The notes beneath the pieces were generated by a model that was not told the origin of the DNA, made no database searches, and was given only the letters and a program-made list of their open reading frames with translations. Below, in pieces: positions 7,970 to 33,680 of a stretch of 64,000 nucleotides of DNA (position 1 is its first letter; the number at the start of each line of letters is the position of its first letter). The position numbers and the translations under genes are program-made. The stretch covers positions 62,001-126,000 of the forward strand of contig NZ_PJAQ01000032.1 in the NCBI RefSeq assembly GCF_002836775.1. Direction: 5' to 3'. The stretch is from Colwellia sp. 12G3 (GTDB taxonomy: Bacteria; Pseudomonadota; Gammaproteobacteria; Enterobacterales; Alteromonadaceae).

Positions 7970-9601
7970 ATGTATCCATTTATGAATGCTTTTAAATCGC
8001 TCTCTATACAATTTAAGATTTTACTGATCCCAACGGTAGGTGCTCTAGGTTTTTGTATCTATTTAATGATGAGTATTCTTGCCATGTCTACCATTGTTGA
8101 TCAAGTTGATAGGGCTTACAGAGTTGAATATCAACTGTTGAAAACCTCCGAATATAGCTTAGTTCGGCTGGATAAAATTAAAGAAACATTTGGCAATGCA
8201 GTCACCATGGGGGAAGGTGACTTGCTTGATGATGCAACAGGCTTTGCACAAGAAATTAAAGATAAGATTAACGTAACTATCCCTATTGACGATGAGAGTG
8301 CTGCTTTTTTACGTCAGCTGTTGACTAATTTTGATCAGTATTTTAATAAAGCGTATGCGCTATCTAAAGAAATGGTTGAAGGTACTGCCGATTTTTCTAC
8401 CTTAGGGCAGCGTAGTAAAGAAATGTCAGACCAATTAGCGCTGCTTCAAAATGATCTAAACAAGTTCCAATCTCAACGTTATGCATCTTTTACTGCTTCT
8501 TTTGAATCAATGTCAGAACAAGCAGAGTCAACGTCATCTTCGGGTCTTATTGTGGGCACAATCACTATCATTTTACTGTTCGCTGTAGCAATTCCAATTG
8601 CTCGGGCTATTCGTTCTAATTTGAAAGATGTTATTGATTCATTGCAAGACATAGCCCAAGAAAATGGCGATTTAACCGTAAGGCTATCGACAACAAGTAC
8701 CGATGAAATCGGGGATTTAGTTTTTTGGTTTAACAGTTTTATTGAGAAATTACAGGGTGTTATTAAAAAGGTTGTTGATACCGCCTTACCTTTGGCTGAG
8801 AACTCTAAAACGATCCAGCGCTTGTCTGAACAAACAATTAACACATTTCAGCGTCAATCAGATAGTGTTTTGCAATCAAGGCAGTCTGTTGAAGAAATGA
8901 GTCTTAGTGTGGCAGACATCACAACTAATGCAGCAGAGGCTGCCGATTCAGCTCGAAACGCTAGCGAAGAAGCGAATAAAGGTAAACAGGTTGTTGAAAT
9001 TACCGTACAAGGCATTAGAGAGCTTGCTGATAATGTTACTCAATCGGCAGAGACTATTTTACAACTCCAAGAAGACACTAATAAAGTCAATGTTGTACTT
9101 GAGGTCATTCGAGGTATTGCAGAGCAGACTAATCTTTTAGCACTTAATGCAGCGATAGAAGCCGCGAGAGCAGGAGAACAAGGGCGTGGTTTTGCTGTTG
9201 TTGCTGACGAGGTTAGAAACCTTGCTTCTCGTACTCAAGAGTCTACTGAGCAAATCAATCAAATGTTAGAGCAACTTCAAGGCGCAGCGAGTAAAGCTGT
9301 AACTATGATGGGAAACTCTCAAGCCAGTGTAGAAGCGAGTGTTAAAAGTGCAAATATCGCGGGTGAAAGTTTAGTATCTATCACTGAGACTGTGAACACT
9401 ATTACGGATATGAATGGCGCGATAGCAGTTGCTACAGAGGAACAACATCAAGTATCAGGATTAATGGTAGGTCATGTAGAGGATATTCAAGGTTGTGCTG
9501 ACGAAGCCTCTGCAGCCTCCGCTGAAATCGCCCTAGTAAGTAATAAATTAGCTGAGTTATCCTCTGAATTAGAGGAAGTAGCTCGTCAGTTTAAAGTCTA
9601 A
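7970..9601 (+). CDS. Methyl-accepting chemotaxis protein
   Basis: 543 residues. TM1 spans about 18-38, followed by a periplasmic helical domain of about 145 residues, TM2 at about 187-207 and a HAMP domain ([20 protein letters not shown]). The cytoplasmic coiled-coil hairpin has the highly conserved tip [20 protein letters not shown]. It senses a periplasmic signal and controls CheA through CheW. No C-terminal pentapeptide for CheR tethering is seen. An alternative start 4 codons in (MNAFKSLSI) is equally likely. A porin and a PstS-like protein follow 47 bases downstream in the same direction, suggesting the ligand is handled by those two. Confidence 0.95.
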
Positions 9602-9648
9602 TAGTTAATGACTGTCACAATAAAATCAACAATAACGGAAGGTATAAC

Positions 9649-10782
9649 ATGAAACAAAAGATAAAGGTTCTAGGCTTATGTAGTGCTTTAGCTGTCAGCA
9701 GTGTCCAGGCTGAAATCGAGTTCAACGGTTTTGCTAATATTGTTGCAGGCACCACAACCTCAAGCGATGAATCACTCTACGGATTTGACGACAAATTTGA
9801 CTTTAAAAATGGCTCATTGTTTGCTTTGCAGGCAACAAGTGATCTTGGTGATGGCTTTGGCGTTACAGCACAAATTATCGCTCGCGGTGAGAATGAATGG
9901 AGTCCAGAGTTTGAATGGGCCTATGTAAGTTATAATGCCACAGACGAGCTTAGGTTTTTAGTAGGCCGTCAGCGTGTTCCGTTTTATATGTATTCAGATT
10001 TTTTAGATGTTTCTTACGCCTATCCTTGGATAACACCACCAGAGGGGGTATATAGTGTTCCATTTGATACATTTGATGGATTGGGTGCCATTTACTCAAC
10101 AAGTATTGGGGAGTTTGATACTACAGTACAGTTTATTTACGGCGGTAATAGTGATGATTTAGTTGCCTTGGATAATGCGCCAGCTGATTTTGAAGACTTA
10201 ATGGGGTTATCAATTACCATCAATAGAGAATGGTTGACCTTACGTGCCGGTTATATTCAAACCAACATGAATATCATTACAGATAGTGGTCCTCTTTATG
10301 CTCCATGGGCTGCGAGTGGCTTTGTTGATGTAGCAAATAATTTTGTTATCGAAGATGATACCGGTGATTTTATAGAACTCGGTTTCCAAGTTGACTATGA
10401 AAACATTCTGCTCATTGGTGAATACACTTCATTAACGTTAGATGGAACGCCAATAGCAGATGCAGATAGTTATTATTTAATGGCAGGCTATCGCTTGGAC
10501 AATATATTAGTTCATATTACGTATGGCGTTGATGATGACGCTAAAGACTCTATAACTGGAGGGGTTCCGTCTGGTGTTAGCCCTCAACTAGATGGTTTGA
10601 TTGCAGTTACTAATGGATTTACTAATTCACTAACTCAAGAGCAATCTTATTACACTATGGGGTTACGATGGGACTTTCATGATTCCACCGCATTAAAGTT
10701 TGAATATACCAGTTATTCAAATGACTTAGATAGTACCAAAGATGCCGGATTATTCCGTACCGCTATTGTAACTGTGTTTTAG
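9649..10782 (+). CDS. Outer-membrane porin-like beta-barrel protein
   Basis: 377 residues: signal peptide MKQKIKVLGLCSALAVSSVQA, then alternating hydrophobic/polar strands rich in Tyr, Asp and Gly, ending in a C-terminal Phe (AIVTVF) typical of outer-membrane barrels. The segment FLVGRQRVPFYMYSDFLDVSY has a close counterpart in the porin at 28.5 kb (VRLGRTAPDLFLLTEYRDVDF), so the two are paralogues. GGAAGG lies before the ATG. It sits between a chemoreceptor and a PstS-like protein and probably admits the ligand. Solute unknown. Confidence 0.82.
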   Translation: MKQKIKVLGLCSALAVSSVQAEIEFNGFANIVAGTTTSSDESLYGFDDKFDFKNGSLFALQATSDLGDGFGVTAQIIARGENEWSPEFEWAYVSYNATDELRFLVGRQRVPFYMYSDFLDVSYAYPWITPPEGVYSVPFDTFDGLGAIYSTSIGEFDTTVQFIYGGNSDDLVALDNAPADFEDLMGLSITINREWLTLRAGYIQTNMNIITDSGPLYAPWAASGFVDVANNFVIEDDTGDFIELGFQVDYENILLIGEYTSLTLDGTPIADADSYYLMAGYRLDNILVHITYGVDDDAKDSITGGVPSGVSPQLDGLIAVTNGFTNSLTQEQSYYTMGLRWDFHDSTALKFEYTSYSNDLDSTKDAGLFRTAIVTVF

Positions 10783-10790
10783 GAGGTCTT

Positions 10791-11207
10791 ATGAAATTTA
10801 TTATCAGTATTTTATTATTAACGTCTTTAGCTATTTCACATACCTGTTATGCGGATGTTTCTATTGTAGTCAATACCGCTAATGGAGGTGCTATATCTGA
10901 TACCGAAATTTCTCGATTATTTTTAGGGAAATTGAAAAAATTCAGTGACGGAGAGTCTGCAATACCTATTAATTCAAAAGCGGGTACAGCAGCTCGGGTG
11001 GTTTTTGAAGAAAAGGTACTTAACAAAAGCTCGAGCCAAATAAAAGCGTATTGGTCTAAGAGGGTTTTTTCAGGAAAAGGTAATCCTCCCACTGAAGTAG
11101 ACAATGATGCGGCAGTACTTTCTTTTGTTGCAGAGAACACAGGCGCTATAGGATATGTTGATGCAGCAAGTGTTGATGGTACTGTGAAAGTGGTGAAAAC
11201 GTTCTAG
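10791..11207 (+). CDS. Small PstS-like periplasmic protein (single PBP-like domain)
   Basis: 138 residues with signal peptide (ends CYA-DVSIVV). The mature part resembles one lobe of phosphate-type binding proteins: VVNTANGGAISDTEISRLFLGK, an AYWSKRVFSGKG segment and TGAIGYVDA near the end. True PstS is about 320 residues, so this is not a full ABC binding protein, and no ABC permease is nearby. A strong AGGAGG lies 5 bases before the ATG, and the porin stop is 8 bases upstream. A paralogue at 29.75 kb also follows a porin. It may present a ligand to the chemoreceptor; that is inference. Confidence 0.75.
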   Translation: MKFIISILLLTSLAISHTCYADVSIVVNTANGGAISDTEISRLFLGKLKKFSDGESAIPINSKAGTAARVVFEEKVLNKSSSQIKAYWSKRVFSGKGNPPTEVDNDAAVLSFVAENTGAIGYVDAASVDGTVKVVKTF

Positions 11208-11265
11208 ATAAAAATCCTACTTATTAGTCGAAATATTTGACTACGTATTTTAAAGGCCGCGAAAT

Positions 11266-11310
11266 AAAAAAGAAGGTCTGCTTAATAGAATTAAGCAGAC
11301 CTTCTTTTTT
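11266..11310. terminator. Bidirectional terminator between PstS-like gene and kdkA
   Basis: A perfect stem of 21 bp (AAAAAAGAAGGTCTGCTTAA with its complement) around a 3-base loop. The A run on one side and T run on the other let it work for both convergent genes. Confidence 0.95.
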
Positions 11311-11406
11311 ATATGAACTAAGCAATCATTGAATGTGGTAAATGTAAGATATTTCATTAAAACGTCGAGAGACTCGCTTTATTTTTATTCTGTTCAGCCT
11401 GCAAAA

Positions 11407-12168
11407 TTAATTGCTACGATTATACCCCTTCATTAATGTTTGCCAGTTTTGTTCAGTAAAATAAAATTTTTCTAACTTATTTAATTCTTTTAAGAATGAA
11501 CGTTGTAAACGTGCCATGTTAGCTTGCTTCCAACTCGTATTAACAGGGTTAGTACGTAATTCACCGCGATCAAAGTCGATTAAAAAAACCTGTTCTTTAT
11601 CATCAAGTAAAATATTATGACTGTTTAAATCATGGTGATAAATCCCATGGTGATGAAAGCGTTTAATAGTGGCACCAATGCGTCGCCAAACATCATCAAC
11701 TAACGCTTTTACACTTAAAATGGCTACTAAATCTTGGGCTTGTTGAATACGGCTGGAAAGCAAGTCAGCTTTGTAACTTAAGCCATGTTGAACAACTCGA
11801 TAGGCTATTGGCTCAGGAGCAGGAAGTTGTAACGTTTGCATATGGCGCAATAGGGCAAACTCACAAGCGGCGCGGGTACTTTCTAAACCACTAAACCAGT
11901 AGGAGTCTTTATTGATTTTACCCATTAAACCACCACGGTAATAATGGCGTAATACCCAGTCATGTTGAATGCTATTGTTATCACTATAGGCGACAAACCA
12001 AGTGGTGCCACGACCTTGCGCTGAACCGGTTACTGCCTCTTTTTGTTGCCAATAACTTGGGCTAAGCATGTCGGCACTGAAATCAGTAATGAGGGTTTCA
12101 TTGAAAAAACAAGCAACCTTGCCTTGTTCAAGTTTAGAAAATTGTGCGGTCGGTATCGCTTGACTCAC
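11407..12168 (-). CDS. kdkA: 3-deoxy-D-manno-octulosonic acid (Kdo) kinase
   Basis: 253 residues. The kinase-like catalytic loop HHHGIYHHDLNSHNILL and metal motif FLIDFDRGELR are intact. GRGTTWFV and HYYRGGLMGKI near the N-terminus match the KdkA/RfaP-type fold. The enzyme phosphorylates Kdo at position 4 in the inner core of LPS at the cytoplasmic face of the inner membrane. Its start overlaps the waaA stop by 4 bases, so both are cotranslated. Single phosphorylated Kdo cores are typical of organisms with this pair. Confidence 0.92.
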   Translation of the reverse strand: MSQAIPTAQFSKLEQGKVACFFNETLITDFSADMLSPSYWQQKEAVTGSAQGRGTTWFVAYSDNNSIQHDWVLRHYYRGGLMGKINKDSYWFSGLESTRAACEFALLRHMQTLQLPAPEPIAYRVVQHGLSYKADLLSSRIQQAQDLVAILSVKALVDDVWRRIGATIKRFHHHGIYHHDLNSHNILLDDKEQVFLIDFDRGELRTNPVNTSWKQANMARLQRSFLKELNKLEKFYFTEQNWQTLMKGYNRSN

Positions 12169-13520
12169 GCGTTATCTCCTACAGAATTTGGAGTAGTGTC
12201 AGTATTAATAGTGTCAATATCAATAGGAATCTTGGGCAGAAGCTTTATTACTTGAGCCAAGGTTTTTTCACTGGCTCCTTGGTTAGCTAATACTACTTTT
12301 AGTGCACTTTCACCAAGCATTTTTTGTAGGATTGGTTGTTGTAATAAGGTACTAACTTCATTGACAAGTTGAGTGCTAGGTTCGTCCGCTGAAAGCTCAA
12401 TAATGGCATTTTCTTGTCTTAACTGCTGCATTATTTCGTTGAAGTTACTCATGTTGTAACCAACGATAACAGGCTTATTAAATAATGCGGGCTCTAACGG
12501 ATTGTGACCACCGACTTCACTGAAACTGCCGCCTATAGTGACGATATCACATAAATCAAAGGCGGCCATTAATTCACCTAGGCTATCAAGCAACCAAACT
12601 TGTTCATCACTAATTACGGTGTTTTCACTGCGCTTTGCTAATGAAAAACCTTGTTCAAGACAAAGGTTGGCGACTTGCTGAAAACGTTCTGGATGGCGCG
12701 GTACTAAAACTAATAACAGTTGAGGATATTGAGTTAACAAATCCTTAAAGGCCGCTAAGGCAATTTTTTCATCGCCATCATGTGTACTGGCGATTAACCA
12801 AATTTTTCTTCTGGATTGGCTATCATCAGTAACAAGTAACTTGGCTAACTCAGCCTTTTTATTGATAACTTGCTCATTAACTGTGATATCGAATTTCAAG
12901 TTACCACTATTTATGCATCGATCTGCCTGCGCACCTAGCAGCAAAAAGTGCGATAAATTCTCTTGGCTTTGCGTGAGTATTTTGTTGAAACGGTTTAAGC
13001 AAGGTTCAATTAGCGGGCTAATTTTTTGGTAGCTCTTTAATGATTTTTGCGATAAACGGCCGTTAATTAATAATAATGTAATATTTTTCTGTGCACATTG
13101 GGCAATTAAGTTCGGCCATAATTCGGTTTCCATGAAAATCATCATTTCAGGTTTGAGTCGTTGCAGAAATAATGCCGTGCAGGGAAATAGGTCTAGCGGT
13201 AAATAACCGTGCTGAACACGATCACCAAAGAGCTTCACTATTTGTGCTGAGCCGGTTGGTGTAAACGACGTTATGGTGATGGGTAAATTAGGATAATTGA
13301 GTAGTAATTTGTCGATAAAGCTTTTTAACGCAATAACTTCACCAACACTGGCGGCATGTACAACAATGCCACCTTGCTTGTAGGGATTTGGAAATAAGCC
13401 CAAGCGTTCTAGCAGACGTTGACGATAAGCTTTGTTGTTTTTAGATCGAACGAGTAAGAAAACCAGTAATAATGGGCATAATAGCAATAGTAAGAGACGG
13501 TAAATTAGCAAGGAAATCAT
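12165..13520 (-). CDS. waaA: Kdo transferase (lipid IVA 3-deoxy-D-manno-octulosonic acid transferase)
   Basis: 451 residues, slightly longer than the usual 420-430 because of a tail after KLLPKIP. One N-terminal membrane anchor (LLLLLLCPLLLVFLLV) is followed by GT-B fold motifs: HAASVGEVIALKSF, FMETELWPNLI, ASTHDGDEKIAL, VPRHPERF and IGGSFSEVGGHNPLEPA. It transfers Kdo from CMP-Kdo to lipid IVA. It forms an operon with kdkA. Confidence 0.97.
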   Translation of the reverse strand: MISLLIYRLLLLLLCPLLLVFLLVRSKNNKAYRQRLLERLGLFPNPYKQGGIVVHAASVGEVIALKSFIDKLLLNYPNLPITITSFTPTGSAQIVKLFGDRVQHGYLPLDLFPCTALFLQRLKPEMMIFMETELWPNLIAQCAQKNITLLLINGRLSQKSLKSYQKISPLIEPCLNRFNKILTQSQENLSHFLLLGAQADRCINSGNLKFDITVNEQVINKKAELAKLLVTDDSQSRRKIWLIASTHDGDEKIALAAFKDLLTQYPQLLLVLVPRHPERFQQVANLCLEQGFSLAKRSENTVISDEQVWLLDSLGELMAAFDLCDIVTIGGSFSEVGGHNPLEPALFNKPVIVGYNMSNFNEIMQQLRQENAIIELSADEPSTQLVNEVSTLLQQPILQKMLGESALKVVLANQGASEKTLAQVIKLLPKIPIDIDTINTDTTPNSVGDNA

Positions 13521-15015: not shown

Positions 15016-15029
15016 ACTACACTCCACTT

Positions 15030-21616: not shown

Positions 21617-23428
21617 TTAGCTTAATAGTCGGATAAACTCATCAAAGGGTAACGGTGTACTAAAATAGAAGCCTTGGTAGTGATAACAACCAAGATCTTT
21701 TAAGCAGTTAAACTCTTCTATCGTCTCAACCCCTTCAGCTAGCACGTTCATCTTCAGGGTCTTTCCTAAACTGATAATCATGCTGGCAATAGCTGCGCTC
21801 TCACTGCTTTGGGCTATGTTAGCGACAAAGGAGCGGTCTATTTTTAATACGCTTGCTGGAATACGCTTTAAATAGGTGAGAGAGGAGTAGCCGGTACCAA
21901 AGTCATCAATCGCACAATCAATAGACTTTTCTTTTAGCGAAGCAATTAACTTGATTGAATCTTCAATGTTTTCTACTAACAGATTTTCTGTTAATTCTAA
22001 CCCTAAGCGTTTAGCGGGGATATCATTCTGCTCAATAGCATGCAGTATTTTCTCTTGAAAATCAGGTTGAATTAACTGTTTAGCACTGATATTAATCGAT
22101 ATCTTATCAAAACTCTCTGGTAGCTTCAGTTGCTCTAGTTTCTTGATGTCACGACAGGCTTGCTCTAGAACCCATTGACCAATAGCGAGAATGAGCTCAC
22201 TTTCTTCGGCAATAGGAATATAAACCGCAGGAGATTCCATGCCATGTATAGGATGCTGCCAACGTAATAATGCTTCCGCACCAATTATGTCACCATAATG
22301 GTTATATTGCGCTTGGTAGTATAATTTAAAATCGTCTTGCTCTAACCCTTGTTTCATATCATCGACATAGTCCAAGCGCCTTTTTATTTTTTCTGACATT
22401 GCTGCTTGGTATTTTTTACCACTTTGACTTTTAGCTCGCTTGGCTTCGTACATGGCAATATCGGAAAATTTAATCAGGTTATTAACCGTACTACTTTGCA
22501 GAGGAAAGAAGGCATAACCAATACTGCAAGTGAGTTTGTACGAATTAGCATCGATAACAAAAGGAATGGCAAGTAATTGGTTAATTTGTTCAATAAGTTG
22601 GTTAACCGTTTCTTGATAATCAATCTTGAGATTTTTCAGCAGAATAATAAATTCATCTCCGCCAAATCGACCAATATCTATATGTTCGCTGCTTAATGAA
22701 TGTAACCTATTAGATAAGGTGAGTAAGATTTTATCGCCGACAGCATGACCCATGGAATCATTTATCGGCTTAAAACGATTGAGATCGATAAAAAGCACAC
22801 TACCAATCTTTTTGTTGAGATGAGCTTCCTCTATTGCATTAGCGAGTAGATGATTTATATGCTGACGGTTAAACAAGCCGGTTAAGCCATCGTGCTGAGC
22901 TTGAAAAGCCACCTTTTCTTCAATGAGTTGCCTAGAATGCACTTCTTTTACTAGGGAGTCATGCACTAATGAGGTGTAACAGCTGGAAGCTAATTTTTGT
23001 AAAACAGGTTGCAGCGCTTTTTGTACTTCATCGCCTAAAATATAGTGGGTTTCAAAGGTGAGTAAACCATGGTTAGGGATAATAAAGCCAAATAGATATT
23101 GACCATTTTCACATTGAAAAGAGCTATTACTTTGGCTGTTGTTGAGCTGTTCTACAAAGTTATTAAGGTGAGTGTTTTGAGCCCAGGGTTGACCACGTTT
23201 ACTTTTTGGAATACTTAAAAAGTGTTGAAAACTAGTGCTTTCAAGTAGTCTTAACTTGCAAGGAATACCACTCTGGTCACAATAAACATGAATATGTGCA
23301 CTCGTTAAGTCAAGGCGGTTAAAACATACCTTTAAAAAAACTTTTAACATAGCTCTTAAGTCAAGCTTATTGCCAATAGCCATGGCAAGCTCATGTTGTA
23401 GTGAAATAATAAAAAGTGCTTTATTCAT
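21617..23428 (-). CDS. GGDEF/EAL c-di-GMP protein with N-terminal sensory region
   Basis: 603 residues. Residues 1-160 resemble a GAF-type sensory domain. The GGDEF domain (about 170-340) has an intact FGGDEF at 255-260, but no RxxD inhibitory site five residues before it. The EAL domain (about 360-600) has AEALLRW, ELTENLL, DDFGTGYSSL and AEGVET intact, so phosphodiesterase activity is likely. It lies 13 bases downstream of a FIST-domain gene and probably receives its signal. Cytoplasmic: no membrane segment seen. Confidence 0.93.
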   Translation of the reverse strand: MNKALFIISLQHELAMAIGNKLDLRAMLKVFLKVCFNRLDLTSAHIHVYCDQSGIPCKLRLLESTSFQHFLSIPKSKRGQPWAQNTHLNNFVEQLNNSQSNSSFQCENGQYLFGFIIPNHGLLTFETHYILGDEVQKALQPVLQKLASSCYTSLVHDSLVKEVHSRQLIEEKVAFQAQHDGLTGLFNRQHINHLLANAIEEAHLNKKIGSVLFIDLNRFKPINDSMGHAVGDKILLTLSNRLHSLSSEHIDIGRFGGDEFIILLKNLKIDYQETVNQLIEQINQLLAIPFVIDANSYKLTCSIGYAFFPLQSSTVNNLIKFSDIAMYEAKRAKSQSGKKYQAAMSEKIKRRLDYVDDMKQGLEQDDFKLYYQAQYNHYGDIIGAEALLRWQHPIHGMESPAVYIPIAEESELILAIGQWVLEQACRDIKKLEQLKLPESFDKISINISAKQLIQPDFQEKILHAIEQNDIPAKRLGLELTENLLVENIEDSIKLIASLKEKSIDCAIDDFGTGYSSLTYLKRIPASVLKIDRSFVANIAQSSESAAIASMIISLGKTLKMNVLAEGVETIEEFNCLKDLGCYHYQGFYFSTPLPFDEFIRLLS

Positions 23429-23441
23429 ATTGACCTAGTTG

Positions 23442-24581
23442 TTACCAAGAGCTAATTACGATTGATTTATTGAGAAGGCGAATAGCGCCACTTTGACTAT
23501 TGGCTATTTCCCCTAGCGAAATTACGCCAAATAGTGCAGGTGAAGGGCAATGTGTAGCAATGGCATTGAGTTCTTTTTCAAACTCATCTTTCATAAATAA
23601 TACTCTACTAATGCAATCGAAGATCATAGTTGTTGGTATTGTTGTTTGAGAAAGTTCTGAAAAAGCGGTGATTGCTGCCAGCGCTGTTGCATCGATTAAT
23701 GTTTCTGTATCACCTTCAAGTAAATAGACCATTGAATTAATAGGAATATTACCAAAGCACTGTAATGTATTGTTTTTTTCTAAAATCGGGTGGCGAACAA
23801 TTAGATTATTGTTGATGTCTTCAATGCCTAGCGGGAAGTTTTTAGCAATATCAAAAAATTCAGTGTTGTTGAATTTGTGTTCAGTGGCACTTTCAATGGC
23901 TTGACAATAAATTTCATATGCAGGTCGATAATTTAAGCTTTGCACAGTTTGCCCTTGCACTTCAGAGGCTAAAAAAGGTCCTTGAAAAATGCGCCAGCCA
24001 TGCGCAACGCTAGTATTAAGCTTTCTTGGTAAGGTGACCAATAACACCGTATTGCTATGAATACCTTGGTTGGTAAAAATGCAAGGTCGTTGGATAAGAT
24101 CTGAATTGCCAGCACCACCACCAGCGATATTAATACCGTGATCTAAGCATTCAAAGAGGCAATCGACAAATCCTTCAATGTTGGGGATTAAGGCATCATA
24201 AAACATCAAAAAATTATCCTGGCCACTGAAATTGTCTTTTTTTTCTAAGGTTGAAGTAATAAGTTTTTCTAAGCAGGCTTCATTGGTTACATGATTTAGT
24301 TGTGAAAACAATGTGACATCAAAGTCTTCTTTAAAACCAATAATCAAAGCACCTTGCTTGATTAAAGTCTCTTGAAGGGTAAGCATTGGATAAATGCCAC
24401 CAAAGAGCTTTAGTGGACAGGCGCTTAATAGTGAGTTGAGTACTTCTTCAGGATAATTATTTTGTTTGCATGTTAGCACTAATAAGCTTTTAGCCCCGCT
24501 ATTTTGGGCGAGACTTAAGCCTTCTTGTAAATCATGTAAAGTATCGCTTTGAGTATGCCAAGTGAATAATTCAGCGTCCAT
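23442..24581 (-). CDS. FIST domain sensor protein
   Basis: 379 residues. The N-terminal half (GGIYPMLTL, ALIIGFKEDFDV, NIAGGGAGNSDL) matches FIST_N, and the C-terminal half (ALFGVISLGEIANS near the end) matches FIST_C. FIST proteins bind small ligands and feed into signalling proteins. The gene is 13 bases upstream of a GGDEF/EAL gene, so the two likely form a ligand-controlled c-di-GMP switch. No membrane segments. Confidence 0.88.
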   Translation of the reverse strand: MDAELFTWHTQSDTLHDLQEGLSLAQNSGAKSLLVLTCKQNNYPEEVLNSLLSACPLKLFGGIYPMLTLQETLIKQGALIIGFKEDFDVTLFSQLNHVTNEACLEKLITSTLEKKDNFSGQDNFLMFYDALIPNIEGFVDCLFECLDHGINIAGGGAGNSDLIQRPCIFTNQGIHSNTVLLVTLPRKLNTSVAHGWRIFQGPFLASEVQGQTVQSLNYRPAYEIYCQAIESATEHKFNNTEFFDIAKNFPLGIEDINNNLIVRHPILEKNNTLQCFGNIPINSMVYLLEGDTETLIDATALAAITAFSELSQTTIPTTMIFDCISRVLFMKDEFEKELNAIATHCPSPALFGVISLGEIANSQSGAIRLLNKSIVISSW

Positions 24582-25132: not shown

Positions 25133-26224
25133 ATGAAAAAATCAATTTTCGTAAAGGCGGCACTTGTCGTATCGCTTGGTTTATCTTCGCTGGGGCTTTC
25201 TGCCTTAGCTCATGCGGATGATGATAAACAATATCGTTGGCGCTTAGCTGAAACCTGGGGACCTAACTTTCCTATTTTTGGTGACACCACTAAAAATATG
25301 GCCAAAATGGTAAAGGAAATGTCCAATGGCCGTTTAACCATTCGTATTGATTCTTCTAATAAGCATAAGTCTGCACTGGGCATTTTTGATTTTGTCAAAA
25401 GTGGCCAATATCAGATGGGGCATTCAGCGTCTTATTACTGGAAAGGTAAAAACTTCAATACCATGTTTTTTACTACTGTGCCTTTTGGCATGATAGCGTC
25501 TGAGCAGCATGCTTGGTTCTATTATGGCGGCGGCATGGAGTTAATGAAAAAAGTTTATGACCAATATGGAATTATGTCATTCCCCGGCGGCAATACTGGT
25601 AACCAAATGGGCGGTTGGTTTAAAAAAGAAATTAACAGCGTAGAAGATTTTAAAGGGCTGAAAATGCGTATTCCGGGTTTTGCTGGTGAAGTGTTAGCAA
25701 AATTAGGCGCAAAGCCTACCAATATTCCATCGGGTGAACTTTATACCGCATTAGAGCGCAATACGATTGATGCGCTAGAGTGGGTTGGCCCATCACTAGA
25801 TTTACGTATGGGTTTTCATAAAATAGCGCCATACTATTACACCGGTTGGCACGAGCCCGGCACTGAGTTACAGTTTATGGTGAATGAAAAAGCTTATAAT
25901 TCATTGCCAAAAGACTTGCAGAAAATATTAACCGTTGCCATGAAAGTGGCTGCATACGATATGTATTCTCAATCAATGCATGCCAGTGGGGTGAACTTAG
26001 CTTCGCTTAAGAAAGATTACCCAAATGTGCAAATGCGCTCATTTCCTAAACCAGTAATGAATGCGCTTATGGTAGCAAATGATGAGTTACTAAAAGAGTT
26101 TGCCGCTAAAGACCCTATGACGGCAGAGATTCTTAAGTCATTAAATGATTATAAAGATCAGGTACGTGCTTGGACTAATTTGTCAGACAGAGCTTATCTT
26201 GATAATTTTGATGCTAAAAAATAG
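25133..26224 (+). CDS. dctP: TRAP transporter periplasmic solute-binding subunit
   Basis: 363 residues with a signal peptide ending at AHA. The DctP pattern is clear: WRLAETWGPNFPIFGDTT, MGHSASYYWKG, FKGLKMRIPGFAGEVLAKLGA (with the conserved Arg that binds the substrate carboxylate) and ALEWVGPSLDLRMGF. It belongs to the TRAP subgroup with YYWKGK-type motifs that binds 2-oxo acids or similar. A strong AAGGAAGGA precedes the ATG. A terminator after it probably lowers expression of dctQM relative to the binding protein. Confidence 0.95.
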   Translation: MKKSIFVKAALVVSLGLSSLGLSALAHADDDKQYRWRLAETWGPNFPIFGDTTKNMAKMVKEMSNGRLTIRIDSSNKHKSALGIFDFVKSGQYQMGHSASYYWKGKNFNTMFFTTVPFGMIASEQHAWFYYGGGMELMKKVYDQYGIMSFPGGNTGNQMGGWFKKEINSVEDFKGLKMRIPGFAGEVLAKLGAKPTNIPSGELYTALERNTIDALEWVGPSLDLRMGFHKIAPYYYTGWHEPGTELQFMVNEKAYNSLPKDLQKILTVAMKVAAYDMYSQSMHASGVNLASLKKDYPNVQMRSFPKPVMNALMVANDELLKEFAAKDPMTAEILKSLNDYKDQVRAWTNLSDRAYLDNFDAKK

Positions 26225-26274
26225 CTTTTAGTCACGGACGAACGACATTTATATAAATATTTTATATAAAAAAT

Positions 26275-26307
26275 AAAACCAGTGGGATAAGTTATCTCAC
26301 TGGTTTT
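26275..26307 (+). terminator. Terminator between dctP and dctQ
   Basis: Stem AAAACCAGTGGGATA / TATCTCACTGGTTTT with one G-U pair and a 3-base loop, followed by T. Placement inside the operon suggests partial read-through. Confidence 0.85.
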
Positions 26308-26354
26308 TGATTATTAATTGAATGACTAAATTGCTTTACTAAGATGAGAACTAA

Positions 26355-26876
26355 ATGGATTCAGTGTTAAAAATAACGGGAAAAATTATCGATGCTCTGG
26401 GTAATTTCTGTAGCTTGCTTATGGTATTAATGATCATTAATGTTTTTTATGACGTTATCATGCGCTACTTTTTTAATGATGTAAGTATTGGTATGCAAGA
26501 GCTTGAATGGCATCTGTTTGCGGGCATGTTTATGTTTGGCATTGCGTATACCTTTAAAGAAGATGGCCATGTGCGCGTTGATATTTTTTACGATAGCATG
26601 TCAGCAAAAAAACAAGCCTTGGTGAATATTTTTGGTTCGATAGTTTTAGCTTTACCTATTACCCTTATTATTCTCTATTACAGCTGGGATTATACTTTTG
26701 AAGCCTATCAAATGGGCGAAGGCAGTGGCGACCCTGGAGGCTTGCCACATCGTTGGATTGTACGCAGTGTTATTCCCCTTTCTTCCATTTTTTTGATGCT
26801 TTCTATTTTTCATGTACTGATTGCTCAATTAAAAATTCTGACTGCGCCAACGCCGCTTGAAGCAGGGGAAGAGTAA
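26355..26876 (+). CDS. dctQ: TRAP transporter small membrane subunit
   Basis: 173 residues with four hydrophobic segments and the DctQ features RYFFNDVSIGMQELEWHLF and EDGHVRVDIFYD. It joins DctM to form the sodium-driven uptake unit. It shares one base with dctM (TAATG), so the two are translationally coupled. Confidence 0.95.
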   Translation: MDSVLKITGKIIDALGNFCSLLMVLMIINVFYDVIMRYFFNDVSIGMQELEWHLFAGMFMFGIAYTFKEDGHVRVDIFYDSMSAKKQALVNIFGSIVLALPITLIILYYSWDYTFEAYQMGEGSGDPGGLPHRWIVRSVIPLSSIFLMLSIFHVLIAQLKILTAPTPLEAGEE

Positions 26877-28156
26877 TGACAGGTATTGTACTTTTTGCTA
26901 TTGCCCTTGTGTGTTTATTTCTTGGCTACTCAGTCGCTTTTACCTTTGCAGGAGTTTCATTAATCGTAGGCACGATTGTTTTAGGCGCTGATTTATTTGC
27001 TTTTATGCCTTATCGCATTATGAGCATTATGGAGAACACTATCTTAATGGCTGTGCCGATGTTTATTTTTATGGGCATAGTGTTACAAAAAACAGGCTTG
27101 GCAGAGCGATTACTTGAGTCTGCCGCTAAACTCTTTGGTGGCATTGCTGGTGGTGTCGCTATTTCTACCATAGTGGTTGGTGCATTATTAGCTGCATCAA
27201 CGGGTGTTGTGGGGGCTAGCGTTGTTGCTATGGGGGTTATTTCCTTACCGGTAATGTTAAAGAACAATTATCACCAACCAACGGCTACCGGCGTTATTTG
27301 TGCTTCAGGCACGCTAGGACAAATTATTCCGCCTTCGATTATTTTAATCATTTTAGGTGATGTTATGGGCGTACCAGTTGGGGATTTATTCCGAGCTGCA
27401 GCCTTACCTGGCATGCTACTGGTTGTTGCCTATGTTATATATATTTTGATATTAGGAAAAATTAAACCTGAATTCGTCCCACCGTTAGTTGTTACTGAAA
27501 ATAAACGTGAACTGCTAGTACAAGCATTAAAAGATATTGTACCGCCATTAATACTTATTTTGACTGTGCTAGGGTCAATATTTGCGGGCATTGCGACACC
27601 AACAGAATCTGCCAGCATAGGTGCGGTAGGTGCGGTTATTTTGTCGGTTTTATATGGCACATTTTCTTTTAGTAAAATGCATGAAGTTTCCAAAGAAACA
27701 GTGAAAGTTACCTCGATGGTTTTTGCGGTATTAATTGGTGCAACGGCATTTTCTATGGTGTTCAGTTATTCGGGCAGCGAGTATCTCATTGAAGAATTCT
27801 TTATGGAGCTGCCAGGGGGCAAGTGGACTTTTATTGCCTTGGCGATGCTTGCCATTTTAATACTCGGTTTCTTTATTGATTTTATCGAAATTGCATTTTT
27901 AGTGGTACCTATTTTACTCCCAGTAGCCATAGCTTTAGATGTAAACTTAGTATGGTTCGCCATTTTAATCTCAATGAACTTGCAAACTTCCTTTTTAACA
28001 CCACCCTTTGGTTTCAGTTTATTTTACCTAAAAGGTGTGGCGCCGAAATACCTTAAAACCACCACCATATATAAAGGGGTGATTCCCTTTATTTTAATAC
28101 AAATAGCGGTACTGTTATTGGTGCTGTTTTTTCCAGACCAATTGATCATTTCATAG
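26876..28156 (+). CDS. dctM: TRAP transporter large membrane subunit
   Basis: 426 residues, about 12 membrane helices, the standard DctM length. Signature parts include AVPMFIFMGIVLQKTGLAERL, ASGTLGQIIPPSIILII and NLQTSFLTPPFGFSLFYLKG. It is the sodium-coupled transport channel of the DctPQM system. Confidence 0.96.
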   Translation: MTGIVLFAIALVCLFLGYSVAFTFAGVSLIVGTIVLGADLFAFMPYRIMSIMENTILMAVPMFIFMGIVLQKTGLAERLLESAAKLFGGIAGGVAISTIVVGALLAASTGVVGASVVAMGVISLPVMLKNNYHQPTATGVICASGTLGQIIPPSIILIILGDVMGVPVGDLFRAAALPGMLLVVAYVIYILILGKIKPEFVPPLVVTENKRELLVQALKDIVPPLILILTVLGSIFAGIATPTESASIGAVGAVILSVLYGTFSFSKMHEVSKETVKVTSMVFAVLIGATAFSMVFSYSGSEYLIEEFFMELPGGKWTFIALAMLAILILGFFIDFIEIAFLVVPILLPVAIALDVNLVWFAILISMNLQTSFLTPPFGFSLFYLKGVAPKYLKTTTIYKGVIPFILIQIAVLLLVLFFPDQLIIS

Positions 28157-28330: not shown

Positions 28331-28350
28331 TTGTAACAGTTTTGTTACAA
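28331..28350. promoter_or_regulatory. Inverted repeat upstream of second porin
   Basis: TTGTAAC-N6-GTTACAA, a perfect palindromic pair about 140 bases before the porin start. It resembles TyrR/PhhR-type boxes (TGTAAA-N6-TTTACA) with one symmetric change. It is the only clear signal in the 332-base gap besides the dctM hairpin. Confidence 0.4.
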
Positions 28351-28488
28351 CTGCGTAGCTGATATGTTATATCTTTGCGCTGAGTATGGTTAGTCTTAGT
28401 TATTGTTTTTATTATTGTTTGCTTCTGTTTTATTTGTGGCGCATTGCTTAATCACCAATGTTAATATATATTTTATAGACAAGCTATT

Positions 28489-29751
28489 ATGCGGTTGTTC
28501 CCTTGTATGCACCTAGTTCAATATAAAAAATTACTCTGTTTACCTCTCTTGCTATTCGCATCATATGTCACAGCCAATGATGCAGAAAGTGACAAACTAC
28601 AATTCAGTGGTTTTGCAACCATAGGCGCGGTTTATTCTGACTCTGAGCATCATGGTTATCGTAAAAATGTAGGTTCAGCTGGGGCGGTCTATTCAGGAGA
28701 GGTTGATTTCAAGCAACATTCACTGCTTGGTTTGCAAGCTGATTGGTCTATTGCATCAGGTTTCGATGCCGTGTATCAAGGTGTGCTTAGAGACCTTCCT
28801 GAACCTTCATTAGACAGATATACCACACTGGCCTTTTTACGGTATGAAGTTAACACTAATTGGACCGTGAGACTTGGTCGAACGGCTCCAGACCTTTTTT
28901 TATTGACAGAATACCGCGATGTTGATTTTTCTTATATCTGGGCGACTGCCCCTAATGAAGTTTATGGCATTATTCCCTATCGAAGTATTGATGGTATTGA
29001 TGTTAGCTATCAACAAAGAGGTTTAGGTGGTGTTTTTAAAGCTAAACTGTTTACTGGTTCGAGTGAAGCCGAAATATCAGCAAGCACTATAGTTGAAGAG
29101 ATCAAAATTGAGGATATTATTGGTCTATCACTATCATTTGATCACTTTAACTGGTTAGTACAGGCAAAGCATAGCCAAGTTACCATTGCCAACGAACCTG
29201 AATCTAACACCTTTGCAATCGACATCATCAATACAGTCCCTGATTTCTTATGGCCTAATTCAGAAATATTTTCGGAATCGTTACTGATGACAGGGGAAAA
29301 AGTCGACTATTCTTCAGTAAGTGCTCAGTACCAATGGCAAAATTGGCTAGCCTCAGCAGAGTTGTCACGCATAACATCAGACAGTGAGGTAATACCTAAA
29401 ATAAGTAGTGGTTATGCTGCTTTGTCATATCAAGTTAATGCCCATCAATTTTATAGTATCTATGCTTTTACTGATTCCGATACTTATGTTTTTGATGAAC
29501 CTGGCGTTAATGAAGTCGTATTAGAGGAACTTATCCATGGCGTAACAGGACTAATGAATTTTTATTCGGCAAATCAGCATACTATTTCTCTGGGCTGGCG
29601 TTGGGATATTACCAATTATATGGCTTCATCTGTGCAATGGAATTATACCAAGGTAGAAGAAACGGGCAGTATCCTGTGGTTGAATAAATCAGAGCATAAT
29701 GAAGTAGAAAAGGTGAATACCTTTCTATTAAATTTGAGCATGGTTTTCTGA
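28489..29751 (+). CDS. Outer-membrane porin-like protein (paralogue of the one at 9.6 kb)
   Basis: 420 residues with a signal peptide ending near YVTA-ND. Beta-strand-rich and Tyr/Trp-rich throughout, ending in Phe (LLNLSMVF). TNWTVRLGRTAPDLFLLTEY and the DVDFSYIWATAPNEVY segment align with the 9.6-kb porin. An internal Met at 28507 is an alternative start; neither has a clear ribosome site. The stop overlaps the next start (TGATG). It heads a four-gene coupled unit ending in c-di-GMP enzymes. Confidence 0.8.
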   Translation: MRLFPCMHLVQYKKLLCLPLLLFASYVTANDAESDKLQFSGFATIGAVYSDSEHHGYRKNVGSAGAVYSGEVDFKQHSLLGLQADWSIASGFDAVYQGVLRDLPEPSLDRYTTLAFLRYEVNTNWTVRLGRTAPDLFLLTEYRDVDFSYIWATAPNEVYGIIPYRSIDGIDVSYQQRGLGGVFKAKLFTGSSEAEISASTIVEEIKIEDIIGLSLSFDHFNWLVQAKHSQVTIANEPESNTFAIDIINTVPDFLWPNSEIFSESLLMTGEKVDYSSVSAQYQWQNWLASAELSRITSDSEVIPKISSGYAALSYQVNAHQFYSIYAFTDSDTYVFDEPGVNEVVLEELIHGVTGLMNFYSANQHTISLGWRWDITNYMASSVQWNYTKVEETGSILWLNKSEHNEVEKVNTFLLNLSMVF

Positions 29752-30185
29752 TGGGTAAGTTTAAGCAAGTTTCCAGCCTACTAATGCTGGCGTTATTTGT
29801 TCTGTCAGTGAGTGCTCAGGAACCTCTTGTGGTCGTTGTTAATAAGAATAATACGGTCGAAAAATTATCTCGTTCAGAGCTTATAGATTTGTTTATGGGG
29901 AAATATGTGGCTTTCCCTAATGATGTTAAGGCGATACCGGTTGAGCTTGATGGCGATCATAAGATTAAGGTCGATTTTTATCAAAACCTTGTCGGCATGC
30001 CTATGTCACGAGTTAACGCCTATTGGTCAAGACTACGATTTACTGGTAGGAAGCGTGATGCGGTATTTAAGCAAAACGAAAATGATTTAATCGATTTTAT
30101 CATAGCTAATGAACAGGCTATTGGTTATGTGCCGGAGTCACTCATCACCGAAGATTTAAAGGTTGTTTATATTTTAAATGAATAA
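29751..30185 (+). CDS. Small PstS-like periplasmic protein (paralogue of the one at 10.8 kb)
   Basis: 144 residues with signal peptide (ends SVSAQ). LSRSELIDLFMGKYVAFPND, RVNAYWSRLRFTGRKRD and EQAIGYVPES align with the 10.8-kb protein. It is one PBP-like lobe, too short for a full phosphate-binding protein. It overlaps the porin by one base and the diguanylate cyclase by 8 bases, implying that its product works with the cyclase's periplasmic sensor. Ligand unknown; calling it a phosphate binder would be unsafe. Confidence 0.75.
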   Translation: MGKFKQVSSLLMLALFVLSVSAQEPLVVVVNKNNTVEKLSRSELIDLFMGKYVAFPNDVKAIPVELDGDHKIKVDFYQNLVGMPMSRVNAYWSRLRFTGRKRDAVFKQNENDLIDFIIANEQAIGYVPESLITEDLKVVYILNE

Positions 30186-31770
30186 ATCTGGTATCGTTAT
30201 TCGATTGGCAATAGTCATTGCCTTTACAGCAGTTATTGTTGGGCTTATTACCACCCAGCTTTTCTATCGCTTTACCTTTCTTAATGAGCAAGCCTTAGGT
30301 AAGCAAAGTATTAATCAATTATATAATACGGTTTCACCTACGGCATCGATCGCGAGTTATTTGGGTGATAAGGAGCTAGCCAAAGAGGTTGTTAATGGCT
30401 TGATTAGCAATGATGTTATTACTTCTGCAGCCATTAAAACTGACACGCTCATGGTGAAAAGTGATAATTATCGGCAGACCACAGATACACTTGAGTTTGT
30501 CTTATTTTCACCTTTTCAAAAAGAGCGGCAAGTGGGGGTTCTTTTTGTCAAAGCCAATGAAGAATACCTTGGCGCGAAAGCAAATAAGATTAGTGCAACC
30601 AATGCTTTTGTTGTAGCAATTGAAGCACTCATTATCACCATTATCTCAATTTTAGTGACCTATTATGTTATTACTCGGCCCATCTTAAGTATCGGCAAGG
30701 CGCTTCACTCAACAAGTCCTGGCACGAGTGAGCGAATAGACAAACCGGTATCTCACCAACACAGTGAAATAGGACAACTAACTGACGATGTTAATGATTT
30801 ATTAGCAAAAGCCGAACAACAAATGCTGAGAGAAAAAAGCCTTAGAAATGAGGTTCAAGTATTAGAGACAAGGTTTAGAATGCTATTTGAAAATGCAACG
30901 TCTGCCATTGTATTAGTTGAGCCTCAGGGTGATATTTTGCTTTATAATGATACATTTGAAAAATTAATTGAACAGCTGAAGTTACCTTTAAAAAAGAATT
31001 ACGGTAACTTTTTACAAGACCTATTCATAATGAAAAAAGACTTGCATGAACAGATTCAAATTGCCTTTGCGAACAACGAATCAGCGACAGCAGAGTTGGA
31101 GCTAATATCATATCAAGACGAAAAAATTTGGGTGCAAGTGGTGGTAACGCTATTGGTAACAGATGATTTTCAAGAGAATTATCAAATAACCTTACACGAT
31201 ATCTCAAAACGTAAACAGCAAATAACCCTACTTGATCAAAAGGCTAATTATGATGGTTTGACTCATTTATTGAATCGTCAGGCGGCAGAGCATCATTTAA
31301 AACAGCTAACTTTAACGCAGAAACCTTTTGCATTGATCATGATGGATTTGAATGACTTTAAACCAATCAATGATATTTTTGGTCATGATGCTGGCGATGA
31401 GTTATTGATTCATGTTTCCAGTCAATTACTCAAAAGCTTGAGAAAAGCGGATGTATTATCTCGTTGGGGCGGTGATGAATTTGTTATTATCTTACCAAAT
31501 TCTTCAAAGGAAGAAGTGATTAATGTTTGTGCCAAATTAGCGACAAAATTGAGTAAACCACTGCATTTGTCACAGCATGATAAAAGTGTTTCTGTTACCG
31601 CAAGTATGGGCGTTAGTTTTTACCCAGATGACCAAGTGGAATTATTAGAGTTAATCAGATCGGCTGACAATGCTATGTATCAAGTGAAAAAAGAAAAATC
31701 GATTAACAATGAACTTTACTTGGCTTTTACCAGTGATATTGTCAACTCAGATAATGATAGTAAACGGTAA
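30178..31770 (+). CDS. Membrane diguanylate cyclase (periplasmic sensor-HAMP-PAS-GGDEF)
   Basis: 530 residues. TM1 is about 8-30, a periplasmic sensor about 31-140, TM2 about 142-164, then HAMP (ITRPILSIGKAL, about 165-215), a PAS domain (MLFENATSAIVLVEPQGDIL, about 232-345) and a GGDEF domain. GGDEF at 431-435 is intact, and RKAD at 422-425 is a correctly placed RxxD product-inhibition site. It should make c-di-GMP from GTP in response to a periplasmic cue. Overlaps with the PstS-like gene (8 bases) and the next EAL gene (TAATG) argue for a single complex. Confidence 0.95.
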   Translation: MNKSGIVIRLAIVIAFTAVIVGLITTQLFYRFTFLNEQALGKQSINQLYNTVSPTASIASYLGDKELAKEVVNGLISNDVITSAAIKTDTLMVKSDNYRQTTDTLEFVLFSPFQKERQVGVLFVKANEEYLGAKANKISATNAFVVAIEALIITIISILVTYYVITRPILSIGKALHSTSPGTSERIDKPVSHQHSEIGQLTDDVNDLLAKAEQQMLREKSLRNEVQVLETRFRMLFENATSAIVLVEPQGDILLYNDTFEKLIEQLKLPLKKNYGNFLQDLFIMKKDLHEQIQIAFANNESATAELELISYQDEKIWVQVVVTLLVTDDFQENYQITLHDISKRKQQITLLDQKANYDGLTHLLNRQAAEHHLKQLTLTQKPFALIMMDLNDFKPINDIFGHDAGDELLIHVSSQLLKSLRKADVLSRWGGDEFVIILPNSSKEEVINVCAKLATKLSKPLHLSQHDKSVSVTASMGVSFYPDDQVELLELIRSADNAMYQVKKEKSINNELYLAFTSDIVNSDNDSKR

Positions 31771-33680
31771 TGATGGCACTACCAGATGAAGTACCACGCT
31801 CCTCAATTACGTTGTTTTCAGATCAAGCAAAAGTACACCGGCTGAGGTTGACTCTGAAAATATTGACAACCATTCTTGCCTTACTATTATTCAGTGAATT
31901 GTTTTTTAATGATTTTTTGCCAACAACGCTAGCTTTTGCTATGTTTTCGTCAATTATCATTTTAGTCTTTTTTTTCTTGTGGGCCTCCGCTGATACTTGC
32001 AGTGTTATTTCAGGCATGGTGTTGTGGTCAGTCGCCGTGTTTATTACTTACGCTTGTTGGCTTGGTAATGGCATATTTGATACCAGTGTATTAGCCTTTC
32101 CTTGTTTACTCATGTTGGCTATTGTCTTATCAGGTAAATTGATTTTTATTTCTCTTTTCGTTTACCTTGTTAGTGCTTTGTGTTTCTTTGCTTTTGCACA
32201 TAGCCAGGGGCTACTCTCTGGGGCACTACTGTTCGAGTCGTTACCTCTTTGGGGGCGAGTTTTTAGTTATATCATCACGTTAACTTTTTTTTCGATAGGT
32301 GTTTTTTATATCTTTTCTGATATCAGGAAAAGGTTTAAAAAAATCCTAGAAAAAAATGCCTCGCTTGAATTAGCAATCAATCAACTAAGAAAACGTAGCC
32401 GTTATGATCAATTAACGCAACTACCTAATGATCAGGTCTGTAAAACAGATCTTGACTCCATTTTACAGCAACAAAAAACGTCAGGTAATATACTGGCTTT
32501 CATTACCTTGAATGTCAGCAACCAGCACTCAATCAAAATGAATTATAGCCATCGCATTTGTGATGAATCATTAAAGCAGCTTGCCAATAGGCTCATTTCT
32601 TTTAGTAACGACAATACCTCGATTTACCGATTTCAGGAAAATGAATTTGTAATCTTAAAGAACTCTATCGATTATCGAGGTATTAGTAGTTTTGTTGAAA
32701 AAGTACATCAAGCTTGTTGTCATACTTTTCATGTCACAGATTTTGACGTGGTTTTACAGCCAGATATAGGTATTGCCCTCGCTCCTTTTGACGGTAGTAC
32801 CATGGCAGACCTAAGACATAATTCACACCTAGCTATGCATACTAAAAGTGCAGGTGAAAAGGCTGATTTCAATTTCTTTGACCAAGCGATGGCTATTCAA
32901 GAACAAGAAAAACTACAATTAACTAAAGCATTGAGAAATGCCATTCAAAATAATGAGTTAGTTTTACACTTTCAGCCAAAAGTCGACTTAGCAACCGAGA
33001 AAATTATTGGTGCCGAGGCTTTAATTCGTTGGATTAGTCCTGAATTCGGTTTTATCCCACCAACGGTATTTATTCCTTTAGCAGAGCAGACAGGAGTAAT
33101 CACTGATATCACTCATTGGGTTATCGAGCACTCGGTAAATGCTTGTAAACAATGGCAAGAATTAGGCTTCACTAAATTATGTATAGCAGTAAATTTATCA
33201 GCCGAAGACTTTAAACGCGGTAATCTAGCTATGCACACCATGGCTCTCTTACATCAGGCTAACTTACCTGCGCACTTTTTAGAGTTAGAGCTAACCGAGT
33301 CAATGTTGATGGATGATATAAATTCTATTCAAAAACAAATTAACGAATTGCGGTCTTTTGGCATTTCATTTGCTATTGATGACTTTGGTACCGGTTACTC
33401 AAACCTTGGTTATTTGACAAAATTCAATGTGAGCATCCTTAAACTTGACCGATCATTTGTGATGAATATTTGCCAATCAAGTAATGAATTACAAATTGTT
33501 AAAGCGATTATCGAAATGAGTAAAAGCTTGAATATTACCAATGTAGCTGAAGGTATTGAAGATAAAGAAACCGCAAACTTACTCGCTAAATTAGGCTGTG
33601 AGATTGGGCAAGGATATCTTTGGTCCAAACCCTTACCACAGCAAGAGTTTATTGCTTTATTATCTGAGAATAATGCATAG
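31770..33680 (+). CDS. Membrane c-di-GMP phosphodiesterase (degenerate GGDEF, intact EAL)
   Basis: 636 residues. Five or six membrane helices span about 27-185. The GGDEF domain is degenerate (FQENEF at 288-293), so it should not make c-di-GMP but may bind GTP. The EAL domain keeps AEALIRW (415-421), ELELTESMLM, DDFGTGYSNLGYL and AEGIED, so it should hydrolyse c-di-GMP. Coupled to the upstream cyclase: an opposing pair in one operon. Confidence 0.94.
   Translation: MMALPDEVPRSSITLFSDQAKVHRLRLTLKILTTILALLLFSELFFNDFLPTTLAFAMFSSIIILVFFFLWASADTCSVISGMVLWSVAVFITYACWLGNGIFDTSVLAFPCLLMLAIVLSGKLIFISLFVYLVSALCFFAFAHSQGLLSGALLFESLPLWGRVFSYIITLTFFSIGVFYIFSDIRKRFKKILEKNASLELAINQLRKRSRYDQLTQLPNDQVCKTDLDSILQQQKTSGNILAFITLNVSNQHSIKMNYSHRICDESLKQLANRLISFSNDNTSIYRFQENEFVILKNSIDYRGISSFVEKVHQACCHTFHVTDFDVVLQPDIGIALAPFDGSTMADLRHNSHLAMHTKSAGEKADFNFFDQAMAIQEQEKLQLTKALRNAIQNNELVLHFQPKVDLATEKIIGAEALIRWISPEFGFIPPTVFIPLAEQTGVITDITHWVIEHSVNACKQWQELGFTKLCIAVNLSAEDFKRGNLAMHTMALLHQANLPAHFLELELTESMLMDDINSIQKQINELRSFGISFAIDDFGTGYSNLGYLTKFNVSILKLDRSFVMNICQSSNELQIVKAIIEMSKSLNITNVAEGIEDKETANLLAKLGCEIGQGYLWSKPLPQQEFIALLSENNA

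Follow-up and report, generated by a model that had tools for sequence, protein, structure and literature searches.

A recurrent pairing of a porin with a predicted one-lobe PstS-like protein beside varied sensors in Colwellia sp. 12G3 and other genomes: a possible trans-envelope sensing unit

The question addressed here arises from a 64,000-nucleotide stretch of DNA of Colwellia sp. 12G3 (NCBI RefSeq assembly GCF_002836775.1, contig NZ_PJAQ01000032.1, positions 62,001 to 126,000 of the forward strand; hereafter the window), in which a porin gene is twice coupled to a gene for a short protein resembling the binding protein PstS, here called sPST: what do such pairs do, and why do both adjoin genes for signalling proteins? 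In unit 1 the pair follows the gene of a chemoreceptor (methyl-accepting chemotaxis protein, MCP), and in unit 2 it is joined to genes for a diguanylate cyclase and a phosphodiesterase of cyclic diguanosine monophosphate (c-di-GMP). The original prediction, made from the sequence, had described the two pairs as paralogous copies of a reusable sensing unit without an ABC transporter, and its account of the locus was borne out in nearly all respects. The list of open reading frames (ORFs) places both pairs where they had been reported, pair 1 behind the chemoreceptor gene, with gaps of 47 nt between chemoreceptor and porin and 8 nt between porin and sPST, and pair 2 in a four-gene set with the cyclase and phosphodiesterase genes, successive genes overlapping by 1, 8 and 1 nt; neither between the two units nor immediately next to either of them is there an ABC transporter gene, although a remote partner may exist. 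The small proteins are mutually paralogous (30% identity over 101 amino acids, E 2e-16) and both carry the AYWS and AIGY motifs ascribed to them. The porins are likewise paralogous (22% identity over 372 amino acids, E 4e-17); of the LGR...DV motif claimed for them the DV part was recovered, but LGR is not common to both, the actual form being V/LGR...DV. The unit 1 porin scored 49.8 bits against Porin_4 (cut-off 27), and that of unit 2, which has no Pfam match of its own, is assigned by its paralogy to the former. The cyclase of unit 2 has intact GGDEF and RxxD motifs and the phosphodiesterase an intact EAL motif, a degenerate GGDEF motif and a hydrophobic N-terminus, as read from the sequence.

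That the pairing in the window is not due to chance is indicated by the 5.06-Mb source genome, where a profile search found three matches to the porin family and three short sPST, paired one to one. The third pair (locus L034, contig C11:344000-359000) has the order sPST-porin and is accompanied by a GGDEF-EAL protein with a dCache_3-like domain. A 581-residue PstS-OmpA-like protein of the same genome (L035:5877-7622) was rejected as a short PstS: it comprises a complete PstS-like part, preceded by an N-terminal extension and ending in an OmpA-like tail, the latter recognised by reading. The closest named match to the window small protein was found in C. psychrerythraea GAB14E (84% identity), and the complete four-gene order of unit 2 recurs in three loci (L037, L236, L237).

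Beyond the source genome, sPST neighbourhoods were collected from the best matches of two genome searches, in an order and a phylum sample, together with 79 named loci. A porin gene was directly beside the sPST gene on the same strand for 210 of the 223 sPST profile matches in the collected loci, and three of the 13 misses were long PstS-type proteins. Of the 238 short sPST finally retained, 223 had an adjacent porin of more than 200 amino acids; the 15 others include four tandem second copies (L155, L157, L161, L162), two with the porin one gene further away (L193, L203) and three near contig ends (L083, L170, L191). The reverse test, which is independent of how the sPST were found, gave the same picture: of 89 porin-profile matches in 119 genomes of the order, 88 had an sPST match within 1.5 kb, and the sole porin without one (L262) sits at a contig end. 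Pairwise distances among porins and among sPST were correlated over 161 pairs (Mantel r 0.74, the largest value in 500 shuffles being 0.12), and nearest neighbours by porin and by sPST coincided in 80 of these pairs. Porin and sPST are thus nearly obligate partners, and the pairing, which occurs in marine as well as other proteobacteria and recurs in 31 family codes of genomes with varied sensor outputs, is not peculiar to the source genome, so that the finding that might have overturned the idea of a reusable unit was sought in the genome searches and did not appear. Some loci depart from the simple arrangement: L063 (6884-11291), L056 and L112, all of genus f2/g7, have two or three tandem porin-sPST pairs, diverged from one another, behind one chemoreceptor, and in L193 (1684-3450) and L203 (7523-9295), from Ketobacter and a metagenome-assembled genome of the Pseudomonadales, a putatively exported protein of 588-590 amino acids is encoded between two sPST genes.

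The description of sPST as a one-lobe PstS-like protein is supported by profile coverage, a predicted structure and structural matches. Matches of the two window small proteins to the NCBIfam PstS profile TIGR02136 (E 4e-7 and 0.004) fell far short of its cut-off, and Pfam gave nothing for either at E<=0.1; the short-protein profile covers about residues 81-199 of a 257-residue PstS. An AlphaFold2 model of the unit 1 sPST, computed from 76 sequences, reached a mean predicted local distance difference test (pLDDT) score of 90. Among the structural matches listed by Foldseek, PstS proteins came top (E 1.3e-7 to 4exl), and a second aligner superposed the model on residues 104-231 of the 260-residue PstS 4lat over 105 residues at 1.8 A (Z 14.3); sPST, like the chemoreceptor domain considered below, may also resemble folds absent from these listings. 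By prediction, then, sPST is one lobe of the PstS fold, and at lengths of only 138 and 144 amino acids the window proteins lack the two-lobed PstS cleft, so that any ligand site would be half a cleft or would be completed by another protein. A hydrophobic N-terminal stretch in both suggests that sPST is presumably secreted. The residues holding phosphate in PstS, which we take from E. coli PstS (R and SGT in TRExGSGTR), are poorly kept: across the 238 sPST the arginine is retained in just 7, which makes phosphate binding unlikely, and most of the SGT run has been lost, its G and second T positions being mostly other residues. The strongest conservation lies elsewhere, above all in the AYWS..F.G region. 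With most of the phosphate-site residues gone, the presentation of a ligand, the role originally predicted for the small protein, could equally be the relaying of porin state. Apparent PstS-sensor fusions (L114, L115, L121-L124, L099) were rejected and read as long open frames, the strong sPST match being C-terminal with its own start behind a long profile-less stretch.

Signalling genes, that is those for chemoreceptors, GGDEF or EAL proteins and histidine kinases, accounted for 126 of 402 cases at the positions immediately flanking the units as compared to 46 of 1305 at positions 3-7. When the neighbours of the pairs were tabulated, as had been proposed, 138 sPST were found to have a sensor gene next to the unit, namely 84 chemoreceptors, 22 cyclase-phosphodiesterases, 17 histidine kinases, 14 cyclases and one HD-GYP protein. 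Chemoreceptors are over-represented in these counts because the 79 named loci were found with a chemoreceptor-type query; the sample is not random, some loci are counted twice (e.g. L047 and L214), and for L143 and L150 the output was assigned manually on the basis of Pfam. The Shewanella-like cyclase-phosphodiesterase of L109 was considered as PdeB of Shewanella and rejected, its GGDEF region lying at residue 446 as compared to near 500 in PdeB (PMC9061725), a judgement drawn from residue numbering and not from alignment. In another locus (L153:899-2563) the sensor region of the kinase upstream of the porin-sPST pair contains a haem-type motif, CxxCH.

The sensors beside sPST share periplasmic domains across several outputs. 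Since members linked to sPST served to build the three domain profiles, the linked fractions given here should be taken as upper bounds for the families at large; the distance tests used 106 sPST places of the order search, from which the weakest rows, mostly long frames, had been left out, and 31 further places from the phylum search in genomes with strong CHASE8-like matches. The periplasmic domain of the unit 1 chemoreceptor was modelled as four long helices (pLDDT 86), followed by HAMP and MCP domains (AlphaFold2, Pfam), and its structural matches were weak (best E 4.6e-3) and of a kind common for helical bundles. In the 119 genomes 34 of 40 matches to this domain lay within 4 kb of sPST, and it was also detected in one GGDEF protein beside sPST (L251). 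A motif resembling Y..A..(L/I)(S/A)..M..GT.DF is conserved in the four-helix domains of the chemoreceptors (about 8340-8400 in the window), and it is a candidate contact site for sPST. The CHASE8-like domain of the unit 2 cyclase recurs in 16 locus proteins, comprising seven histidine kinases (one assigned from Pfam), eight cyclases and one cyclase-phosphodiesterase, all of which directly adjoin sPST except L059, where the porin stands between. In 398 genomes of the phylum 24 of 26 strong matches (>=67 bits) lay within 2 kb of sPST, a count that excludes 17 weaker matches (25-35 bits), none within 4 kb of a listed sPST, which are probably ordinary CHASE8-like domains. Pfam CHASE8 itself matched only weakly in L126 (E 0.026, under the cut-off), and the window cyclase was not listed at E<=0.1. 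The dCache_3-like domain was found in 20 cyclase-phosphodiesterases, one cyclase (L127) and one HD-GYP protein (L150, where Pfam also matched), and in the 119 genomes 17 of 18 matches lay within 2 kb of sPST. All 11 aligned dCache_3-like domains (L034, L086, L090, L092, L105, L109, L127, L133, L138, L150, L247) share an invariant pair of cysteines, spaced four residues apart, which possibly forms a disulfide, metal or redox site. A fourth domain occurs, within the collected loci, in five histidine kinases from genomes guessed to be Vibrio-like, all beside sPST.

How often the outputs were exchanged was estimated on an sPST tree of 172 of the 238 sequences, thinned at 70% identity and computed in quick mode from a short alignment. 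Output type changed at least 11 times (mean 45 and least 39 in shuffled data), sensor family at least five times (shuffled mean 42) and gene order at least 15 times (shuffled mean 38), indicating that units keep a sensor for long periods yet have switched repeatedly.

On balance we consider it probable that the porin and sPST form a trans-envelope sensing unit that relays to an inner-membrane sensor. The dedicated outer-membrane porin and the secreted one-lobe protein would together form the input, and sPST would act on the sensor's periplasmic domain, relaying to it either porin state or a solute that enters by way of the porin. The sensor would be exchangeable, being a chemoreceptor in unit 1, with altered swimming as the output, a diguanylate cyclase acting with a phosphodiesterase in unit 2, with altered c-di-GMP as the output, and elsewhere a cyclase-phosphodiesterase, an HD-GYP protein or a histidine kinase. 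What the analysis establishes is the association of the genes, the recurrence of sensor domains across outputs and the predicted one-lobe fold; that sPST is secreted, that it touches the sensor and perhaps the porin, and that there is a ligand are what we infer here, as is the way in which the effect runs. Several observations weigh against this reading. There is no adjacent signalling gene on either strand for 84 of 205 units, and 100 of the 238 sPST have no sensor gene next to the unit, so that the sensor may be encoded elsewhere or the pair may also do something else. Six sPST stand without a porin (L061, L121, L177, L224, L248, L251), two of which (L248, L251) adjoin a GGDEF gene, and the porin is therefore not always needed in cis. 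Each sensor-domain family also has members apart from sPST: six four-helix matches, of which one lies on a broken contig and the other five are chemoreceptors; two strong CHASE8-like matches, both histidine kinases; and one dCache_3-like match. Around the five chemoreceptors and the two kinases, the neighbouring DNA retrieved contained no sPST. Moreover, profiles derived from sPST-linked members favour linked matches in all three families. The genomes of the chemoreceptors with the linked four-helix domain and no sPST nearby (L254-L258) have porin-sPST pairs elsewhere; orphan pairs and orphan chemoreceptors together suggest that the partners can also act in trans.

A further-reaching form of the trans-envelope sensing unit is put forward tentatively, as a possibility in which we place limited confidence: porin and single lobe may be a joint receptor, whose site or switch is completed on the porin or on the sensor, and this input may have been plugged into chemotaxis, c-di-GMP turnover and phosphorelays through at least three unrelated periplasmic domains, thereby giving bacteria a general means of wiring outer-membrane permeation to behaviour.

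Of the explanations that compete with the sensing unit, the one that survives best, though we regard it as unlikely, is that sPST acts as a YfiR-like periplasmic regulator without a small ligand, held by the porin or released by the envelope, which represses or activates a CHASE8-like sensor, the porin serving as an anchor or stress gauge and not as a ligand gate. It would suit a single lobe without a clamshell in which the PstS arginine is so seldom kept, and it draws on the weak CHASE8 resemblance of the unit 2 sensor domain noted above for L126. It sits less well with chemoreceptors, which usually report solutes, being the most frequent partner here, and with the neighbouring four-helix and dCache_3-like domains, which are typical small-molecule sensor folds. 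The YfiBNR system occupies the same three places, outer membrane, periplasm and inner membrane, but YfiB is a lipoprotein and not a porin (PMC4655355).

It is improbable, in our estimation, that the pair is instead an uptake device, in which an anion- or solute-selective porin would feed a periplasmic shuttle and sensors would adjoin simply because the cell swims towards, or settles by, the same solute. The units without a sensor would be accounted for, and sPST is predicted to be folded like a transport binding protein; however, no recurring transporter family was seen beside the listed units, as judged from gene sizes and our own profiles with no search aimed at transporters, and three sensor-domain families tied to sPST go beyond what co-regulation needs. 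Still less probable is a role of sPST as an accessory or assembly factor of the porin family, with sensors watching porin state or abundance: linkage of porin to sPST does exceed linkage to any sensor and the two evolve together, but porin-less sPST occur beside a GGDEF gene (L248, L251) or a GGDEF-EAL gene (L261). Finally, that sPST is a cut-down PstS reporting inorganic phosphate is very improbable, since its kinship to PstS in fold and sequence is offset by the presence of one of two lobes only, the near-total loss of the site arginine and the replacement of most of the SGT run.

Two described systems come close to the porin-sPST unit. In NspS-MbaA of Vibrio cholerae (PMC8079147), a periplasmic binding protein whose gene immediately precedes that of a membrane GGDEF-EAL protein acts on the periplasmic domain of the latter independently of import, and a binding-protein-like gene beside a GGDEF/EAL gene is likewise found in unit 2 and in the dCache_3-like units. 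NspS, however, is a full polyamine-binding protein and no porin is named in the passages describing it (PMC8079147), whereas the units described here have one PstS lobe, a porin and varied outputs; in addition, NspS is of the PotD type, and the top fold matches of sPST are PstS proteins, PotD being set apart without direct comparison. YfiBNR of Pseudomonas aeruginosa, with outer-membrane YfiB, periplasmic YfiR and the inner-membrane cyclase YfiN (PMC4655355), shares the three-compartment layout; resemblance to CHASE8 among the sensor domains here was weak and seen in L126. It differs in that its outer-membrane component is the lipoprotein YfiB and ours a porin, in that sPST is predicted to be PstS-like and is probably not YfiR-like (YfiR being set apart without direct comparison), and in that the outputs here include chemotaxis and histidine kinases. 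NspS-MbaA is therefore closest in logic and YfiBNR closest in layout, and the unit belongs to neither, as a defining feature of each is lacking. Tar with maltose-binding protein and PstS with CtpL resemble unit 1 in joining a four-helix periplasmic domain to a binding-protein-like partner, but these partners are full-size binding proteins held in common with ABC transporters, as opposed to one lobe, a dedicated porin and no adjacent ABC genes. AioX-AioS, LuxP-LuxQ, TorT-TorS and XylFII-LytS are likewise binding-protein-type partners dedicated to a histidine kinase, and AioX and XylFII-LytSN appear as structure titles among the structural matches listed; unlike sPST they are two-lobed and are not known to act with a porin. 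TonB-dependent transducers, FecA-FecR among them, also signal from a transport protein of the outer membrane to the inner membrane, but by means of a TonB-dependent receptor and a sigma regulator in place of a porin and a PstS lobe. Binding-protein partners of sensors are thus of a known kind; to our knowledge the dedicated porin, the single PstS lobe and the exchangeable outputs are new, and no paper describing a porin-sPST system was found by title or abstract start in a literature search covering open-licence PMC text.

Two further gene sets of the window lie near the units, whose features are collected in Table 1. Upstream of unit 2 is a TRAP transporter set (25133-28156), not mentioned in the original prediction, whose end is 332 bp from the porin gene; DctP was recognised by Pfam match and the two membrane genes from their position and size. 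It was rejected as a partner of unit 2 as no equivalent gene order was seen, by gene sizes, in the three loci that share the order of this unit. On the minus strand (21617-24581) a protein with FIST N and C domains is encoded 13 nt upstream of a GGDEF-EAL gene; this gene pair appears to encode a FIST/NosP-type sensor with c-di-GMP output.

Table 1. Genes and periplasmic domains of the two porin-sPST units, in window coordinates
Feature	Position	Strand	Evidence
Unit 1 chemoreceptor (MCP), 543 aa, first gene	7970-9601	+	Pfam MCPsignal E 8e-40, HAMP E 4e-8
Unit 1 chemoreceptor, periplasmic four-helix sensor domain with flanking transmembrane stretches	8051-8581	+	AlphaFold2 pLDDT 86
Unit 1 porin, 377 aa	9649-10782	+	Pfam Porin_4 E 5.5e-13; paralogue of unit 2 porin
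Unit 1 sPST (one-lobe PstS-like periplasmic protein, predicted), 138 aa	10791-11207	+	AlphaFold2 pLDDT 90; PstS-lobe match
Unit 2 porin, 420 aa	28489-29751	+	same porin profile; homology to unit 1 porin
Unit 2 sPST (one-lobe PstS-like periplasmic protein, predicted), 144 aa	29751-30185	+	homology to unit 1 sPST
Unit 2 diguanylate cyclase, 530 aa (CHASE8-like, PAS, GGDEF)	30178-31770	+	GGDEF E 2e-43, PAS_9 E 3e-6
Unit 2 cyclase, periplasmic CHASE8-like sensor domain, about residues 39-144	30292-30609	+	domain recurs in other sensors
Unit 2 c-di-GMP phosphodiesterase (GGDEF-EAL), 636 aa	31770-33680	+	EAL E 1e-71, GGDEF E 2e-17

If the porin-sPST pair is indeed a trans-envelope sensing unit, hundreds of genes annotated as parts of phosphate ABC transporters or as porins would represent the input half of signalling systems. 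Porins are usually viewed as passive pores, and in such a system the porin would be a dedicated link in the signalling chain. As the input gene occurs with several outputs, establishing the ligand or state of one sPST would open a route to what many orphan chemoreceptors, cyclases and kinases sense.

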